Source of the DNA: a virus | IMG/VR virus record: IMGVR_UViG_3300049491_000089 | Span: 1-23,597 of that record | Length of the DNA: 23,597 bases | Direction: 5' to 3' (one strand) | Shown: positions 1,578 through 23,597 of the stretch, one piece after another | Numbering within the stretch: the first letter of the stretch is position 1 | Layout of the letters: each line of letters opens with the position of its first letter | Notes under the pieces: generated by a model | What the model was told of the DNA's origin: nothing | The model's input: the letters and a program-made list of their open reading frames with translations, nothing else | Database searches by the model: none | Position numbers and translations under genes: made by a program

Positions 1578-3707
1578 TTAAATTCCGACTACAAAGAAGT
1601 TAAATCCATACGACTGTCCGGCTGCTGGTGTGCCGATGTATGCGACAGTGAAGTAAGTCGCAGTCTGATCAACAACCTGCCAGTTGCCTGTTCCAGACGC
1701 TATTGTTTGATAGCCAGAAACAATGACAGTCGGAATCGTCGAATAGGACGCAGGAACTGGCGACTGGTAAGTGACCTTGATAGTTGGATTCGCTGCAGGT
1801 GTTCCTGCTGCGTTAACACCAACTGCACCAGCGGCATTTGTGCCGGATGTGTAGTTCATTGTTGATGTTGACCAGCCGGTTAGTGTCACGTTTGCATTCG
1901 TGATCGATGTGCCGTTTGTTGCATTGAAAGATGCACAAGTAAGCTCACCTGTAGTGTTGACGCTTGTTGCACCAGCAAACGCACCACCAATAGTCAATGC
2001 ACCGCCTGCACCAGTTCCGCCGAGTGTTAAAGCACCCGCAGCACTACGAAGAAGATAAACGTCAGTGCCGACCGAACCGCTACCAAAAGCTAAGGTTGCA
2101 TCGTTGCCTAAATATGCGGTGGGATAATCAACTAATGTATCTTTGAATAGGTTGATAGTTCCAGCACCGGCTGTTGCCGAGACTACCAAGGCTCCATTGC
2201 GTACATATAATGCATTTCCATAGACGTCTGGGGTTTCAAACGACAGGCCGACAATCTCGCCATCTCGTATATTTAAAGTTTTATTGCCGAGGTCTTGGAG
2301 AGTAAATCGATCACTCTGTGTGCCTGTTTCATCTAACACAGGAGAGCAACCAATAAACACATTACCACGACAGTCGCCGTCGGCTACCGTTGCTTGATAT
2401 GCAGGAACAACTAAGTTATCTGAATAGCCACTGAGTCCGATAACTGTGTTGTTGCTGGAAGTTGTTAGTTTCAATTGACGTGATGCGGTATTTGGTAGAT
2501 TGTATGTCCATAGCCCTTTAATTGTTGAACCATAGCACGCATCCATAAGAATGCCGATTCCCGGTTTCGAAGCATCAATATATGTGTTAACTTCACTACC
2601 TCCGCTATTGAATGAGAACCCAAAGCAGTTTTTAAACTGGTAAGAAATATTGCAATTATCTGCTGCGCCGCCGTTGATAACAAAATAGCCGTGACCTTCA
2701 AATGAGAATCCAGATCCTATTGTGTCATTGGCATAGCAACCATTCCATACTGTTGATGTTCCGCCGACATATTCAGACGAGAATCCTTCAACACGAATAC
2801 CGCGCGTTCCACACAGTTCCGTAATGACACTATCAAACACGCTTGTAATTGGAATTTGTAGACGTAATCCCTGTGTTGGAAATTGCTTGATGCGAACATT
2901 AGACATCACTACGCCGTAGAGCGCGGTGCCATCACTCTTCAATAACTGTAAACCAGAACTTGTTAGTGCAGCAGCTTGGCCGGGACCTATAACTGAGAAG
3001 TTTCTCCATTCTGAAGCTGATGCATCAGTAAATACAAATGCATTACCCGTCAATGTTGTCCCACTAAAGATTGTTGATAGTGGACCATCACCAATGATAC
3101 CCATACAGTTTGGAGCAGAAGCATTTGAAATTGCTCCTGTAATCTTGTATGTGCCTGCAGGTGCATAGATAGGTTGTTTAAGAGCCGATGCTGCTGCCAT
3201 AGCTGCAAGGATTGCACTTGTGCAATTTGTTGTACCGTTACCAACAGCACCATAGTCAGTAATGTTAGTTAAAATTGCGCCAGATAGGCCACCACTTATT
3301 GCTGATACCAATGCTGTCACAGCATCGAGTTCATCTTGGAAACCTTCAAGTTCTTGATCCACAATTGTGTCAAAGTCTTGAATCATCATTACTGTACGAT
3401 CCATATCGTCATCAAGTGTCGCTGCACGTAATGCACCACCTTCTACATAATCTGTTGTTCGATCAAATGGTGTGATACGTTGTAACTTTACGATTGTTCC
3501 TGCACCCGGTTTTGCTCCTGCTGTAAAGGTAACATTTCCACCAGCCTCATTACCTACACCACTAAGTGTATATCCGCTGCTATAAAGTACGTCATCGACA
3601 TACACTTTTAAATCGCTAGAAGTTAGAATTCGAAACGGATAAGCAAAGATTGTTGTTGATCCATTTCCGTTATAGGTAATTAAAGGTGTTTGGGTTGAAA
3701 CTGGCAT
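1578..3707 (-). CDS. Tailspike: T7-type anchor fused to pectate-lyase-like beta helix
   Basis: 709 aa. Residues 1-115 are the gp17-type tail anchor (PFRIL at 24-28, TTDYVEGGALR at 84-94, LDDDMDR at 98-104). Residues 111-140 are a probable short coiled coil. At 146-190 the sequence NITDYGAVGNGTTN ... PIYAPAGTYKI is the classic N-terminal signature of pectate-lyase-3-type phage tailspikes (right-handed beta helix). The following Gly/Asn-rich segment to ~470 fits the helix. The last ~100 residues form a separate C-terminal domain, perhaps for trimerisation. This architecture is typical of depolymerases that digest capsule or O-antigen, but no catalytic residues can be assigned by eye. It starts 38 nt after the terminase stop with an AGAGG site and a GATAAATA box upstream. 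The next gene downstream is the tail fibre, so the phage carries two receptor-binding proteins. Confidence 0.88.
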   Translation of the reverse strand: MPVSTQTPLITYNGNGSTTIFAYPFRILTSSDLKVYVDDVLYSSGYTLSGVGNEAGGNVTFTAGAKPGAGTIVKLQRITPFDRTTDYVEGGALRAATLDDDMDRTVMMIQDFDTIVDQELEGFQDELDAVTALVSAISGGLSGAILTNITDYGAVGNGTTNCTSAILAAMAAASALKQPIYAPAGTYKITGAISNASAPNCMGIIGDGPLSTIFSGTTLTGNAFVFTDASASEWRNFSVIGPGQAAALTSSGLQLLKSDGTALYGVVMSNVRIKQFPTQGLRLQIPITSVFDSVITELCGTRGIRVEGFSSEYVGGTSTVWNGCYANDTIGSGFSFEGHGYFVINGGAADNCNISYQFKNCFGFSFNSGGSEVNTYIDASKPGIGILMDACYGSTIKGLWTYNLPNTASRQLKLTTSSNNTVIGLSGYSDNLVVPAYQATVADGDCRGNVFIGCSPVLDETGTQSDRFTLQDLGNKTLNIRDGEIVGLSFETPDVYGNALYVRNGALVVSATAGAGTINLFKDTLVDYPTAYLGNDATLAFGSGSVGTDVYLLRSAAGALTLGGTGAGGALTIGGAFAGATSVNTTGELTCASFNATNGTSITNANVTLTGWSTSTMNYTSGTNAAGAVGVNAAGTPAANPTIKVTYQSPVPASYSTIPTVIVSGYQTIASGTGNWQVVDQTATYFTVAYIGTPAAGQSYGFNFFVVGI
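3429..3460 (-). repeat. Copy 2 of duplicated tail-anchor coding segment
   Basis: Partner of 1287-1318, with one mismatch in 32 bp, inside the tailspike anchor domain. Neighbouring bases coding for the DDD-x-DR-x-VMM segment are also similar between the two genes. Confidence 0.8.
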
Positions 3708-3734
3708 TGATTTGTTTTCCTCTTCTTATTGTTC

Positions 3735-3742
3735 TATTTATC
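3735..3742 (-). promoter_or_regulatory. Late-promoter-like box GATAAATA before tailspike
   Basis: GATAAATA on the minus strand in the 38-nt gap between the large terminase and the tailspike, 27 nt before the tailspike ATG. It belongs to a set of six similar boxes (see findings). The promoter role is inferred from position and likeness to the T4 late box TATAAATA. Confidence 0.4.
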
Positions 3743-6059: not shown

Positions 6060-6067
6060 TATTTATC
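6060..6067 (-). promoter_or_regulatory. Late-promoter-like box GATAAATA before terminase genes
   Basis: GATAAATA on the minus strand in the 41-nt gap after the 1413-aa gene, 28 nt before the GTG start of the small terminase. Same octamer and almost the same spacing as before the tailspike (27 nt) and the 79-aa gene (27 nt). Confidence 0.4.
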
Positions 6068-13197: not shown

Positions 13198-13736
13198 TGT
13201 TTATTCCTCTCCAGAAGTCGTTCCATCATATTTACCGGAATCAGCAAAGGTTCGACGATTGATATCTCGCTTTCTACTTCTTCAACGGTAGTTGCGTCGG
13301 TTTTGTGGTAAGTTACCCAGGTTGTCTCCTCGTGGATAAACAACAAACGCTTCTCGCCTGCGGGTGACCAAAACTTAACGTCACCCGCCATATCTTCATA
13401 ACCGCGCTCAGTGAAGCAAGTACAGAAGCCCTTCGTCATATGGACAAGATGCTCCATTGAATGACGTTTGCCTACGATGATGAATCCGGCAGGCATAGTC
13501 AGTTCACGTCTGTAGACACCATCGCTAAACGAATGGATTGGAGCAAGTTCATTTCCCCATAACTTGATAGGCACATCAGCACGCTCACACATACCCTGCA
13601 CCACGTAGATCATTTCACGACGTTGCATGTCATCATCGGACACCGGCAACGCACAAAACTCTTCAAACGTCTTGATGTGTTGTGGACCTTGTAGAGATAA
13701 GTTAGATACTTGTGGGTGAACTGTTAAATCAATCAT
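13194..13736 (-). CDS. Cupin-like small phage protein
   Basis: 180 aa. Residues ~75-147 look like a single cupin beta-barrel: RRELTMPAGFIIVGKRHSMEH (His92 and His96), HMTKGFCTCFTERG (turn glycine 103), then FWSPAGEKRLLFIHEETTWVTYH ending with His144. The spacing of HxxxHxxH, a glycine turn, the PAGxKR motif and a late TxH follows a cupin-like protein common in phage structural clusters. A metal could be held by the histidines. The function in virion or infection is unknown. It overlaps both neighbours by 4 bp (ATGA), so it is translated with the GNAT and gp14-like proteins. Confidence 0.6.
   Translation of the reverse strand: MIDLTVHPQVSNLSLQGPQHIKTFEEFCALPVSDDDMQRREMIYVVQGMCERADVPIKLWGNELAPIHSFSDGVYRRELTMPAGFIIVGKRHSMEHLVHMTKGFCTCFTERGYEDMAGDVKFWSPAGEKRLLFIHEETTWVTYHKTDATTVEEVESEISIVEPLLIPVNMMERLLERNKQ
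13229..13236 (-). promoter_or_regulatory. Late-promoter-like box GGTAAATA before gp14-like gene
   Basis: GGTAAATA inside the 3' end of the cupin-like gene, 31 nt before the gp14-like ATG. It is the same octamer as before tail tube A. It is the only member of the set inside a coding region and the weakest on context. Confidence 0.28.
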
Positions 13737-14182
13737 TTGTCATCCCACTCAAACACATAACCGCGTTTCACAAATCCCATTTTTTCAAATAATGCTGCTA
13801 CTCTTTCGGTCTTAACACCTGTGCTATTTGCAAGAATGATTTGCTTTGCTCCCTTTTCCTGAGCTTGCTTTACATAAGCCTTGATAAGTTGCAATGCAGT
13901 TCTGTTGCCACGATGTTCGGGAGCCAAGAAAAGTGCGTAGTCGGTGGCTTGAATATCACTGCCAAACCATTGTTGGTGGAGTGAAGCCATAATGCCGCCC
14001 TGTATCTCGTAGTCTTCTTCAAAGACAATCAAAATACCTGCATCAACACAAATGAGTGTTGACATCAACTCTGCAACTTTAGCCTCGTCAAACTCATATT
14101 TTGCGAAGATACTTTCCTTGTGCATGAGTCTCCCGAGTGCAACCATTGCAGGAATGTCTTCTTTCGTTGCGTCCCTGATCAT
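13733..14182 (-). CDS. GNAT-family N-acetyltransferase in the T7 gene 13 position
   Basis: 149 aa. Standard GNAT layout: MIRDATKEDIPAMVALGRLM (alpha1), a beta hairpin ILIVFEEDYEIQGGIM, beta4 DYALFLAPEH, then the acetyl-CoA loop HRGNRTA at 90-96 (R/Q-x-x-G-x-G/A type). Motif B is AALFEKMGFVKRGYVFEWD at 129-147. The motif A loop has Asn/Arg where the second glycine is common, so activity is plausible but not assured. T7 gp13, a virion assembly factor between genes 12 and 14, is itself described as GNAT-like, so this may be its equivalent with the cofactor loop kept. The substrate is unknown. The start overlaps the tail tube B stop (TAATG) and the stop overlaps the cupin-like start. Confidence 0.85.
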   Translation of the reverse strand: MIRDATKEDIPAMVALGRLMHKESIFAKYEFDEAKVAELMSTLICVDAGILIVFEEDYEIQGGIMASLHQQWFGSDIQATDYALFLAPEHRGNRTALQLIKAYVKQAQEKGAKQIILANSTGVKTERVAALFEKMGFVKRGYVFEWDDK

Positions 14183-21507: not shown

Positions 21508-21825
21508 TTAACTTCCACCAGGAGCAATTAGCGTCGCACGTTTTGCTTTCTTAGATGACTTGCTCTGTGAGTCTTCCAGAGACATGAGTCCGTCGCCCTC
21601 TTCAGACGCAAGTCCTGCAAGTAATGTTCTATTCTTAGCACGACGAGCAGCATCGGCATTAGCCATGCCAACTTGATCTGCGACGATCTTTGCGTTCTCT
21701 TGTTGTTTGTTTAAGTCACGCTCTGCTTTTAAGCGATCAGCTTCCGCTTGCGCTCTTGCTTTAGATGCGTTCTCTTGGGCTACCAGTTCAGCACTGGATG
21801 GTCCACTTGATCCACCACCACACAT
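21508..21825 (-). CDS. Small MCGGG-type virion-region protein, first gene of the late block
   Basis: 105 aa from the ATG at 21823-21825, chosen because GGAGGG stands 6 nt upstream; an ATG 10 codons earlier has no such site. It begins MCGGGSSGPS, then a helical Ala/Lys/Glu region (ASKARAQAEADRLKAERDLN ... ADAARRAKNR), and ends SKKAKRATLIAPGGS. A Met-Cys start with a glycine/proline turn and a basic end recalls T7 gp6.7 and similar ejected small virion proteins upstream of the portal. Similarity is by pattern and position, not proven. It is the first leftward gene from the control region. Confidence 0.6.
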   Translation of the reverse strand: MCGGGSSGPSSAELVAQENASKARAQAEADRLKAERDLNKQQENAKIVADQVGMANADAARRAKNRTLLAGLASEEGDGLMSLEDSQSKSSKKAKRATLIAPGGS

Positions 21826-21874
21826 ATCAATCCCTCCAATAAGGTAAAGTTCCAAAACACTACCGGTTTCGAAC

Positions 21875-21882
21875 TATTTATA
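21875..21882 (-). promoter_or_regulatory. Late-promoter-like box TATAAATA before the first late gene
   Basis: TATAAATA, exactly the T4 late promoter box, on the minus strand 49 nt before the ATG of the 105-aa gene. No -35-like TTGACA is visible about 17 nt upstream. Confidence 0.45.
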
Positions 21883-21964
21883 CCTTCTTGAAGATTGAGT
21901 GAGTGATTGGCTGGTGAAGTGGTTGGAAAGGTGAGAGCTTATGGTTGCACTTTAGTGAAAGAAC

Positions 21965-22075
21965 GGTCAGTCGGTGAAATTGGGACGCTTAAGCGCGGTC
22001 AGTCGGTGAAATTGGGACGCTTAAGCGCGGTCAGTCGGTGAAATTGGGACGCTTAAGCGCGGTCAGTCGGTGAAA
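21965..22075 (+). repeat. Tandem 32-bp repeats (3 perfect copies plus 15-bp partial)
   Basis: Perfect units at 21965-21996, 21997-22028 and 22029-22060, then the first 15 bases again at 22061-22075. Each unit starts GGTCAGTCGGTGAAATTGGG and ends with the perfect palindrome CGCTTAAGCG (21986-21995, 22018-22027, 22050-22059). 32 bp is about three helical turns, so all copies face the same side of the DNA. The units touch with no spacers. Confidence 0.95.
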
Positions 22076-22481
22076 GATTCCTAAAAGTGGTATGGTAGAG
22101 AAAGTGTGTATTTTTTCTAACATCACTTTCTTAAACAGTAGTCCATGCTCTTTTTCACGTTACTTTCTAAAGTGTTAAACGTTTTTCAAAATTAGTCTCA
22201 CATAGAGACCTTTCACGATTCGAGAACTGTTTACCTACCAAGAACGCCCATCACTTCAAGTGTCCGCGCATTTAGACTGACAATGAGATGTAAGTCTGAC
22301 AGCAATGTCACAGCACAGTTGAGGTGCGGAAATCGTGTGTTAGATCAATAGCCTATATGGCCACAGTTGTATATTGAGTACGAAACCACTTAAGAACTGT
22401 GGGATCTACCACGAAAGACTAGGCTTATATAACTTTTAGTTGGATCAGCTGTGAATGATCGTGGATGATAAGTGGTAAACT

Positions 22482-22548
22482 TCACCGACTGACCATTGGT
22501 TCACAGTCTCATATCACCGACTGACCATACCTCTACCATAGTCTGACC
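22482..22548 (-). repeat. Inverted, phased copies of the 32-bp repeat core
   Basis: The core GGTCAGTCGGTGA reads on the minus strand at 22482-22494 and 22514-22526, again exactly 32 bp apart. A shorter copy, GGTCAGAC, is at 22541-22548 and ends 22 bp further. Sequences between the cores are not conserved, so only core and spacing are kept. Confidence 0.88.
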
Positions 22549-22704
22549 ATTCACATCACATGCCCAAAACAGCACCAAAACCTACCTTCGACCGTGTAAT
22601 TTGCTATGCATCTGCTTCAAAGCTATCTACTTACGGTCAAGATCAGTTCAAACCACTCACTCCCATATTTCTACACAAATAATCTACATACAAACTCCCT
22701 GGAT

Positions 22705-22728
22705 CATTACAAGCTAAGGCTTGTAATG
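22705..22728. repeat. Perfect hairpin 1 of cluster
   Basis: Ten-base arms CATTACAAGC and GCTTGTAATG around the loop TAAG. No T-run follows on either strand, so a simple intrinsic terminator is unlikely. Confidence 0.85.
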
Positions 22729-22737
22729 TCAAGACTT

Positions 22738-22759
22738 ATGTTGTGTGACAACACAACAT
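22738..22759. repeat. Perfect hairpin 2 of cluster
   Basis: Nine-base arms ATGTTGTGT and ACACAACAT around the loop GACA, starting 9 nt after hairpin 1. Confidence 0.85.
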
Positions 22760-22769
22760 CAGCCACGTA

Positions 22770-22782
22770 AGGGCGACGCCCT
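22770..22782. repeat. Short GC hairpin 3 of cluster
   Basis: Arms AGGGC and GCCCT around the loop GAC, 10 nt after hairpin 2. Confidence 0.65.
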
Positions 22783-22852
22783 ATCTATATCTAAGCGAAT
22801 CCTGTGTGAGAGTCCTGTACGAGAACTATAGAACTGTGGAGTCTTTGCTTAC

Positions 22853-22882
22853 TTGACTTCTCTATTGCATAACTGATATCTT
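22853..22882 (+). promoter_or_regulatory. Possible host sigma-70 promoter for rightward genes
   Basis: TTGACT at 22853-22858 and TATCTT at 22877-22882 with an 18-base spacer, about 90 nt before the first rightward start. The -10 is a weak match (4 of 6). Confidence 0.3.
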
Positions 22883-22973
22883 CTCGACTGTCACGTATCT
22901 AACATGTGTTTTGCTCGTGTGCAGCAGATTGTCTGTTGTATGTGTGCGGCAGCGTGGCACGAAAGTGTTTTAT

Positions 22974-23267
22974 ATGTTTAGTGATATGATGATTGAATGC
23001 ACGTTTGATGGTGCAGTGAGTGAAGTTGACTTTAACAAGCACATAGAAGATATGTGTTGCCAGTTAGATGAGCAAGTCAACTACGTGTTAGAGATCGATG
23101 ACAGCAACAAGAAGGTCTACATCAACCTTGAAGCTGGGCGAAATCCTAACTGGGAGATTGATGTTGCGCATATGGGGATTCGCGGGATGCGGCCTATGTT
23201 TCAACGCCGTGAAGTGTTTTGCAAGTGTGGTGCTACTGACTGCTCTGATGCGGAGGTGCAGAAATGA
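22974..23267 (+). CDS. Small rightward protein with Cys-rich end, unknown function
   Basis: 97 aa from the ATG at 22974, with a weak GAAAG site 8 nt upstream. The frame is open from an ATG at 22911, but that extension (CSRLSVVCVRQRG) does not read like the rest and lacks a ribosome site; ATGs at 22986 and 22989 are alternatives. The body is acidic (CTFDGAVSEVDFNKHIED; NYVLEIDDSNKKVYINLEAG) and ends in FCKCGATDCSDAE, whose three cysteines could bind a metal. No family recognised. It is the first gene of the rightward arm and overlaps the next gene by 4 bp. Confidence 0.65.
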   Translation: MFSDMMIECTFDGAVSEVDFNKHIEDMCCQLDEQVNYVLEIDDSNKKVYINLEAGRNPNWEIDVAHMGIRGMRPMFQRREVFCKCGATDCSDAEVQK

Positions 23268-23473: not shown

Positions 23474-23597
23474 GTCACACCCTGCTATTGTTGATTTAGA
23501 GTTAGAAGATTGGTTGAAGCAAAATATGCGGATTCCGTTGCTGCCACAGAAAGCAATCAATCGTGCTGTGGCAGGCATACTTCGTAAGCACGGCTAT
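23466..23597 (+). CDS. Start of a further rightward gene, cut by window edge
   Basis: 44 codons visible from the ATG at 23466-23468 to the right edge, with GGGAG 7 nt upstream and an 8-bp overlap with the previous gene. It begins MAKSHPAIVDLELEDWLKQN and continues MRIPLLPQKAINRAVAGILR. Too short to assign. Confidence 0.7.
   Translation, partial: MAKSHPAIVDLELEDWLKQNMRIPLLPQKAINRAVAGILRKHGY

Follow-up and report, generated by a model that had tools for sequence, protein, structure and literature searches.

IMG/VR record IMGVR_UViG_3300049491_000089 is a linear viral record of 23.6 kb, and the window analysed here covers its whole length, positions 1 to 23,597. Judged from its sequence, the source virus is a podovirus, present here as a fragment, that is related to epsilon15- and VP2-like phages and is probably temperate. 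A leftward late operon encodes the terminase, tail fibres, internal virion proteins, tail tube A and B, capsid and portal. By the portal, the nearest named phages are Yersinia YeP4-6, Acinetobacter phages, Alcaligenes phage Piluca and the Pelagibacter and Vibrio VP2-type podoviruses, at 31–38% identity. Two adjacent tail fibre genes (3–1559 and 1578–3707, both on the minus strand) have matches to the same PHROG families, confined to their first ~110 residues, and so appear to share an N-terminal anchor and to differ beyond it. An acetyltransferase-family gene (13733–14182, minus strand) lies within the structural operon, between the tail and internal virion genes.

The first gene of the late operon (21508–21825, minus strand) encodes a 105-aa MCGGG... 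protein that also stands at the operon head in the relatives found. Between it and the rightward small genes lies a 1,163-bp non-coding gap (21826–22988), placed correctly between divergent arms by an earlier sequence-only reading of this DNA, in which no convincing gene could be discerned. The rightward genes start at 22989, ~0.6 kb before the end of the record at 23597. The first of them (22989–23267, plus strand) encodes 92 aa; neither it nor the second has a family match, and single-sequence folds of both proteins were uninformative. No Rfam or tRNA match was obtained for the gap region, and its BLAST comparison with phage and plasmid records returned nothing relevant.

All copies of the core motif GGTCAGTCGGTGA reside in this single gap: six exact copies, four forward and two reverse, and one partial copy. 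The core is an asymmetric, non-palindromic 13-bp sequence, directly repeated in the left array (21964–22075, plus strand), where four copies, at 21965, 21997, 22029 and 22061, stand in 32-bp tandem units (CGGTCAGTCGGTGAAATTGGGACGCTTAAGCG) whose spacer contains the palindrome CGCTTAAGCG. These units had been described as perfect, and TRF indeed reports a 32-bp unit in 3.5 copies with a 100% match. The right array lies on the minus strand and comprises copy 1 (22482–22494), with an extended match of 23/27 to the first copy of the left array and its flank, an exact copy 2 lying 32 bp further out (22514–22526) and, 22 bp beyond that, the partial copy (22536–22548; 9/13 bases). The core positions given by the sequence-only reading for both strands all proved exact, as did the right-hand spacing of 32 and then 22 bp, and the short copy that it saw ending at 22548 is this 9/13 match. 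At 10.5 bp per turn, the two steps correspond to 3.05 and 2.1 helical turns. The inverted right set is 408 bp from the left set, and the nearest facing cores are 421 bp apart centre to centre, or 40.1 turns, a phasing that chance gives about once in five. Each array points inward, away from its nearest operon.

Because the 32-bp repeats are perfect, spacers included, the left array is a recent tandem expansion; duplication of entire units made its spacers identical, and it therefore counts as approximately one independent site. Beyond the core, the right copies have little in common, so that what is conserved is the asymmetric core of 13 bp and the step of 32 bp. Two earlier statements need to be narrowed in this light. 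The core is kept in right-hand copies 1 and 2, as claimed, but copy 1 also retains flanking sequence; and the proposal that phase was kept while the spacer was lost applies to the right array, with its two full copies and one partial, but not to the left, where the spacers are identical by duplication. Elsewhere in the 23.6-kb record no further copy was found at up to two mismatches, and the matches with three mismatches (four, versus 4.7 expected) are at chance level. In each of 30 Markov-resampled windows the commonest 13-mer occurred twice, versus the six occurrences observed.

Several other elements share the gap. Directly inside the left array is an AT-rich (69%), easily melted stretch (22076–22200) with two 21-nt T-rich near-repeats (22114 and 22151); it is the second least stable 100–150-bp stretch of the window and falls within the least stable 0.1%. 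The 10-bp element TATGGTAGAG (22091–22100, plus strand) has an inverted copy inside the right array, at 22531–22540. Consecutive hairpins occupy 22705–22783, between the right array and the first rightward gene, with a perfect 10-bp stem (22705–22728), a perfect 9-bp stem (22738–22759) and then a short GC stem, GGGCGACGCCC; the DNA fold of this region has a z of -4.8. As RNA, the interior of the gap reaches a z of -3.9 with the arrays, and a structured RNA is not favoured, as the interior folds weakly once they are excluded (z -2.4 and -0.8). Two one-mismatch DnaA boxes occur in the gap (22450 and 22669), with no enrichment over the window, and sigma-70-like promoters within the gap are at chance level. 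GC skew, proposed earlier as a check, gave a cumulative curve without a usable extremum.

Portal and capsid searches yielded six relatives with the same operon head: L007/G001, L008/G002, L148/G005, L228/G003, L230/G004 and L143. Matches to the MCGGG pattern in L134, L135 and L137 belong to unrelated phages and were set aside. L143 (portal 65% identical) is a 3-kb contig from a MAG labelled Caldisericota, and is probably a phage contig put in that bin by composition. The core itself, which the sequence-only reading proposed to look for in related genomes, is not conserved: GGTCAGTCGGTGA is absent from the gap in six of six relatives. Its spacing was recovered in part, since a ~32-bp step recurs with other sequence in the L008/G002 gap but not in L148 or L228, and L007 has 43 bp. 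The 748-bp gap of L008/G002 (portal 70% identical) holds two separate direct-repeat pairs, unlike GGTCAGTCGGTGA in sequence and each 15/17 identical, one at 32 bp and the other at 33 bp. The first pair has an apparent third, weaker member and contains one GTCGGTGA, oriented as the left array of the window. The whole of G002 (34 kb) contains just three such pairs, two of them in the homologous gap, where the arrays adjoin some of the least stable DNA of the contig; the gaps of the relatives also hold some of their contigs' least stable DNA.

Such spacing is rare elsewhere. In 2,258 chunks of 748 bp taken as controls from other viral loci, one pair at 31–34 bp was present in two and two pairs in none. 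In non-coding runs of at least 250 bp (~50 kb), the sole pair outside the podovirus family of the window was spaced at 45 bp, and the matches at 32 and 33 bp came from a second locus of G002 itself. In the other relatives, L007 has a single pair in its gap, in L230 pairs spaced by 31 and 34 bp occupy an adjacent non-coding stretch, the gaps of L148 and L228 contain no such arrays, and L143 is nearly without a gap. Conservation of a ~32-bp spacing, as a predicted feature of the family, is thus supported by one clear relative, L008/G002, and a phased asymmetric core together with a ~32-bp step in that gap fits a predicted protein–DNA array on one face of the helix. As a separate observation, L148 and L228 carry 11–12-bp perfect dyads with 7-nt spacers in the homologous gap.

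Upstream of the late operon lies a late-promoter-like box, TATAAATAG (21874–21882, minus strand). The motif TAAATA[GC] occurs ~30–80 bp before the first late gene in the window and in six of six relatives with a readable operon head, and is repeated before many other late genes, commonly ~30–35 bp from the start codon. It is found 39 times on the late strand versus 4 times on the opposite one, and rearranged versions of its six letters show no such strand excess. Further sites in the window are at 3734–3740, with TAAATAT variants near 6065 and 13234 (all on the minus strand), and the motif is also present in G001, G002, L148, L228, L230, L143, L149 and L150; it is not enriched among 77 more distant capsid relatives. 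No conserved -35 element accompanies it, and its sequence is similar to that of the T4 late box, TATAAATA (PMC2984593). This motif makes transcription of the podovirus group predictable.

Taken together, the gap may be viewed as a cis-acting control region in which the two arrays would be iteron-like sites for one phage DNA-binding protein, most likely a replication initiator; this reading is preferred tentatively, at somewhat less than an even chance. A phage protein would occupy the four left sites next to each other on a single helix face, distort and melt the AT-rich stretch and then load the replisome, while the right set might be a site for control or looping, either holding back firing or tying it to the transcription of the operons on both sides. 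Consistent with an origin are the confinement of the core to the gap, four direct asymmetric repeats in helix phase, the adjoining AT-rich unstable DNA and the ~32-bp arrays in the G002/L008 gap, such spaced pairs being nearly absent from viral controls. Against it stand the lack of a visible initiator gene in a record that ends at 23597, the DnaA-box and GC-skew results, the two relatives without arrays (L148, L228), the nearly gapless L143 and the 43-bp spacing of L007.

A further point against it comes from G003 (L235, 3895–4285), where the 8-mer GTGATACA occurs in five copies within 390 bp, in both orientations, with one more elsewhere in 28 kb. Within the stretch examined, the 60 bp of lowest stability are enclosed by the cluster, which has primase-like and DUF5906 (SF3-type) helicase genes directly downstream and by this anatomy is likely a replication origin. 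It lies ~1.3 kb from the homologous gap of G003, outside it, so the family can carry origin-like anatomy, yet the gap need not be an origin. A P4-alpha-type origin was rejected for the window, where no primase-helicase is visible, DUF5906 having been found in G003 only. GCGAAGC mini-hairpins were likewise discarded as a common origin feature, being genome-wide in G002 and absent from the window.

Many plasmid iterons are spaced ~22 bp apart, and the P1 and F plasmid origins have a second, separate repeat cluster. Plasmid iterons are mostly direct repeats that bind monomers in phase with the helix (PMC5043065). Like the gap of the window, iteron origins of the P1, F and RK2 type have asymmetric direct repeats in helix phase beside an A+T-rich stretch (PMC5043065), but the window has a 32-bp step, no Rep gene that could be seen, no DnaA-box enrichment and a tailed-phage setting between late and early genes. 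In the Vibrio cholerae satellite PLE, several repeat families lie in one non-coding region, and one of them proved to be the iteron of the initiator (PMC7145576). The presence of several repeat families within one intergenic region is shared with the window, whereas the PLE iterons are semi-palindromic RepA_N sites, and neither a RepA_N gene nor a similar repeat was found in the window. Lambda-type origins also have tandem sites at helical multiples, but such repeats in the related phages Piluca and vB_EcoM_APEC are spaced by 22–23 bp inside genes of the replication module, and an origin with ~22–23-bp iterons within the initiator gene does not agree with the 32-bp non-coding array of the window.

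The sequence-only reading had offered origin iterons and early/late operators as alternatives. A phased asymmetric core in a divergent gap fits both, while the absence of the core from relatives, one half of the refuting condition set by that reading, counts against the proposal as it was made. Control of transcription is a close rival, to which we give roughly one chance in three; the arrays would be upstream activator or repressor sites for switching between the late (leftward) and early (rightward) promoters of the divergent pair, perhaps through looping. The arrays sit between divergent operons and retain helix phase. The left set starts ~85 bp upstream of TATAAATAG, and in L008 and L007 the nearest arrays precede that box by 120–210 bp. 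Promoters, too, are compatible with helix phasing and with DNA that melts easily. Three relatives, G002, G003 and G005, encode tyrosine integrases, so a lysogeny switch is likely somewhere in these genomes. On the other hand, four perfect tandem copies with a distant inverted set exceed the usual needs of a regulator, the core is not palindromic, unlike the sites of dimeric repressors, sigma-70-like promoters in the gap are no more frequent than by chance, and neither the window nor the scanned early proteins of the relatives yielded a recognisable regulator or repressor. We prefer an origin over regulation on account of the direct repeats, the absence of dyad symmetry, the perfect tandem duplication on the left, the easily melted DNA and how large the gap is.

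Particular regulatory systems agree less well with the arrays. Piluca, a related temperate phage, has a 24-bp repeat pair between its CI and Cro genes, likewise in a divergent control region, but the window has an asymmetric core, a 32-bp step and no CI or Cro gene beside the gap, and operators of this type were rejected. The stoperators of mycobacteriophage L5 have an asymmetric 13-bp core scattered along the genome; the core of the window is of the same type, but its six copies are confined to one gap, with none elsewhere at up to two mismatches. Promoters of a single-subunit phage RNA polymerase, which would repeat one motif before many genes in their reading direction, were discarded as well, the core occurring in one gap only and the arrays pointing away from the nearest operons.

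A more inclusive hypothesis joins the origin to transcription. Across the family, the gap preceding the late operon would hold a nucleoprotein element of two clusters phased at three turns, with rapid turnover of its DNA sequence and retained spacing, and this element would couple the start of replication to a T4-late-like promoter (TAAATA[GC], without a conserved -35 box). As a whole we regard this as rather unlikely. Should the spacing prove conserved as the sequence drifts, co-evolution of an initiator or regulator with its binding site would be tractable in this group.

Less probable still is that the left 32-bp array is a neutral slippage expansion of one site, only one left and two right sites being of importance. 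The identical left spacers do speak for recent expansion, but slippage leaves unexplained both the common inverted core 408 bp away and the independent ~32-bp arrays in the G002 gap, and we consider this very unlikely. In some attP regions, arm sites form facing arrays of one short core. Integrase arm-type sites flanking a central crossover, or another recombination site, would match such an arrangement and the integrases of the three relatives, but attP normally lies beside int, which is ~5 kb (G005) to ~9 kb (G003) from the head of the late operon or at the far contig end (G002) and was not found within the window, and the ~590-bp span is large, which makes this the most improbable of the readings weighed here.

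Phased repeat arrays in phage control regions are of a known kind; the core sequence of the window is new. A 14-mer scan of viral contigs returned 119 stretches, and among the 80 listed all were single matches, about as expected by chance. A scan for two cores 16–46 bp apart returned 16 stretches, none of which resembles the gap by eye; by the same inspection the matches look like repeats within coding sequence, L248 being unclear. Most likely, the arrays dock a phage protein that would start or control the copying or reading of the genome, an ordinary device previously unmapped in this phage group. The gap is probably the centre of control in an uncultured group of podoviruses with almost no nameable early gene, and the 13-bp core at 32-bp steps provides a concrete DNA bait for finding the binding protein. 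Among the relatives, G002 also carries (L144, 668–1856) a weak cyclase-domain match, below the Pfam cut-off, beside a gene for a PycTM-domain effector, which together look like a candidate Pycsar-type defence pair on a related phage or prophage.
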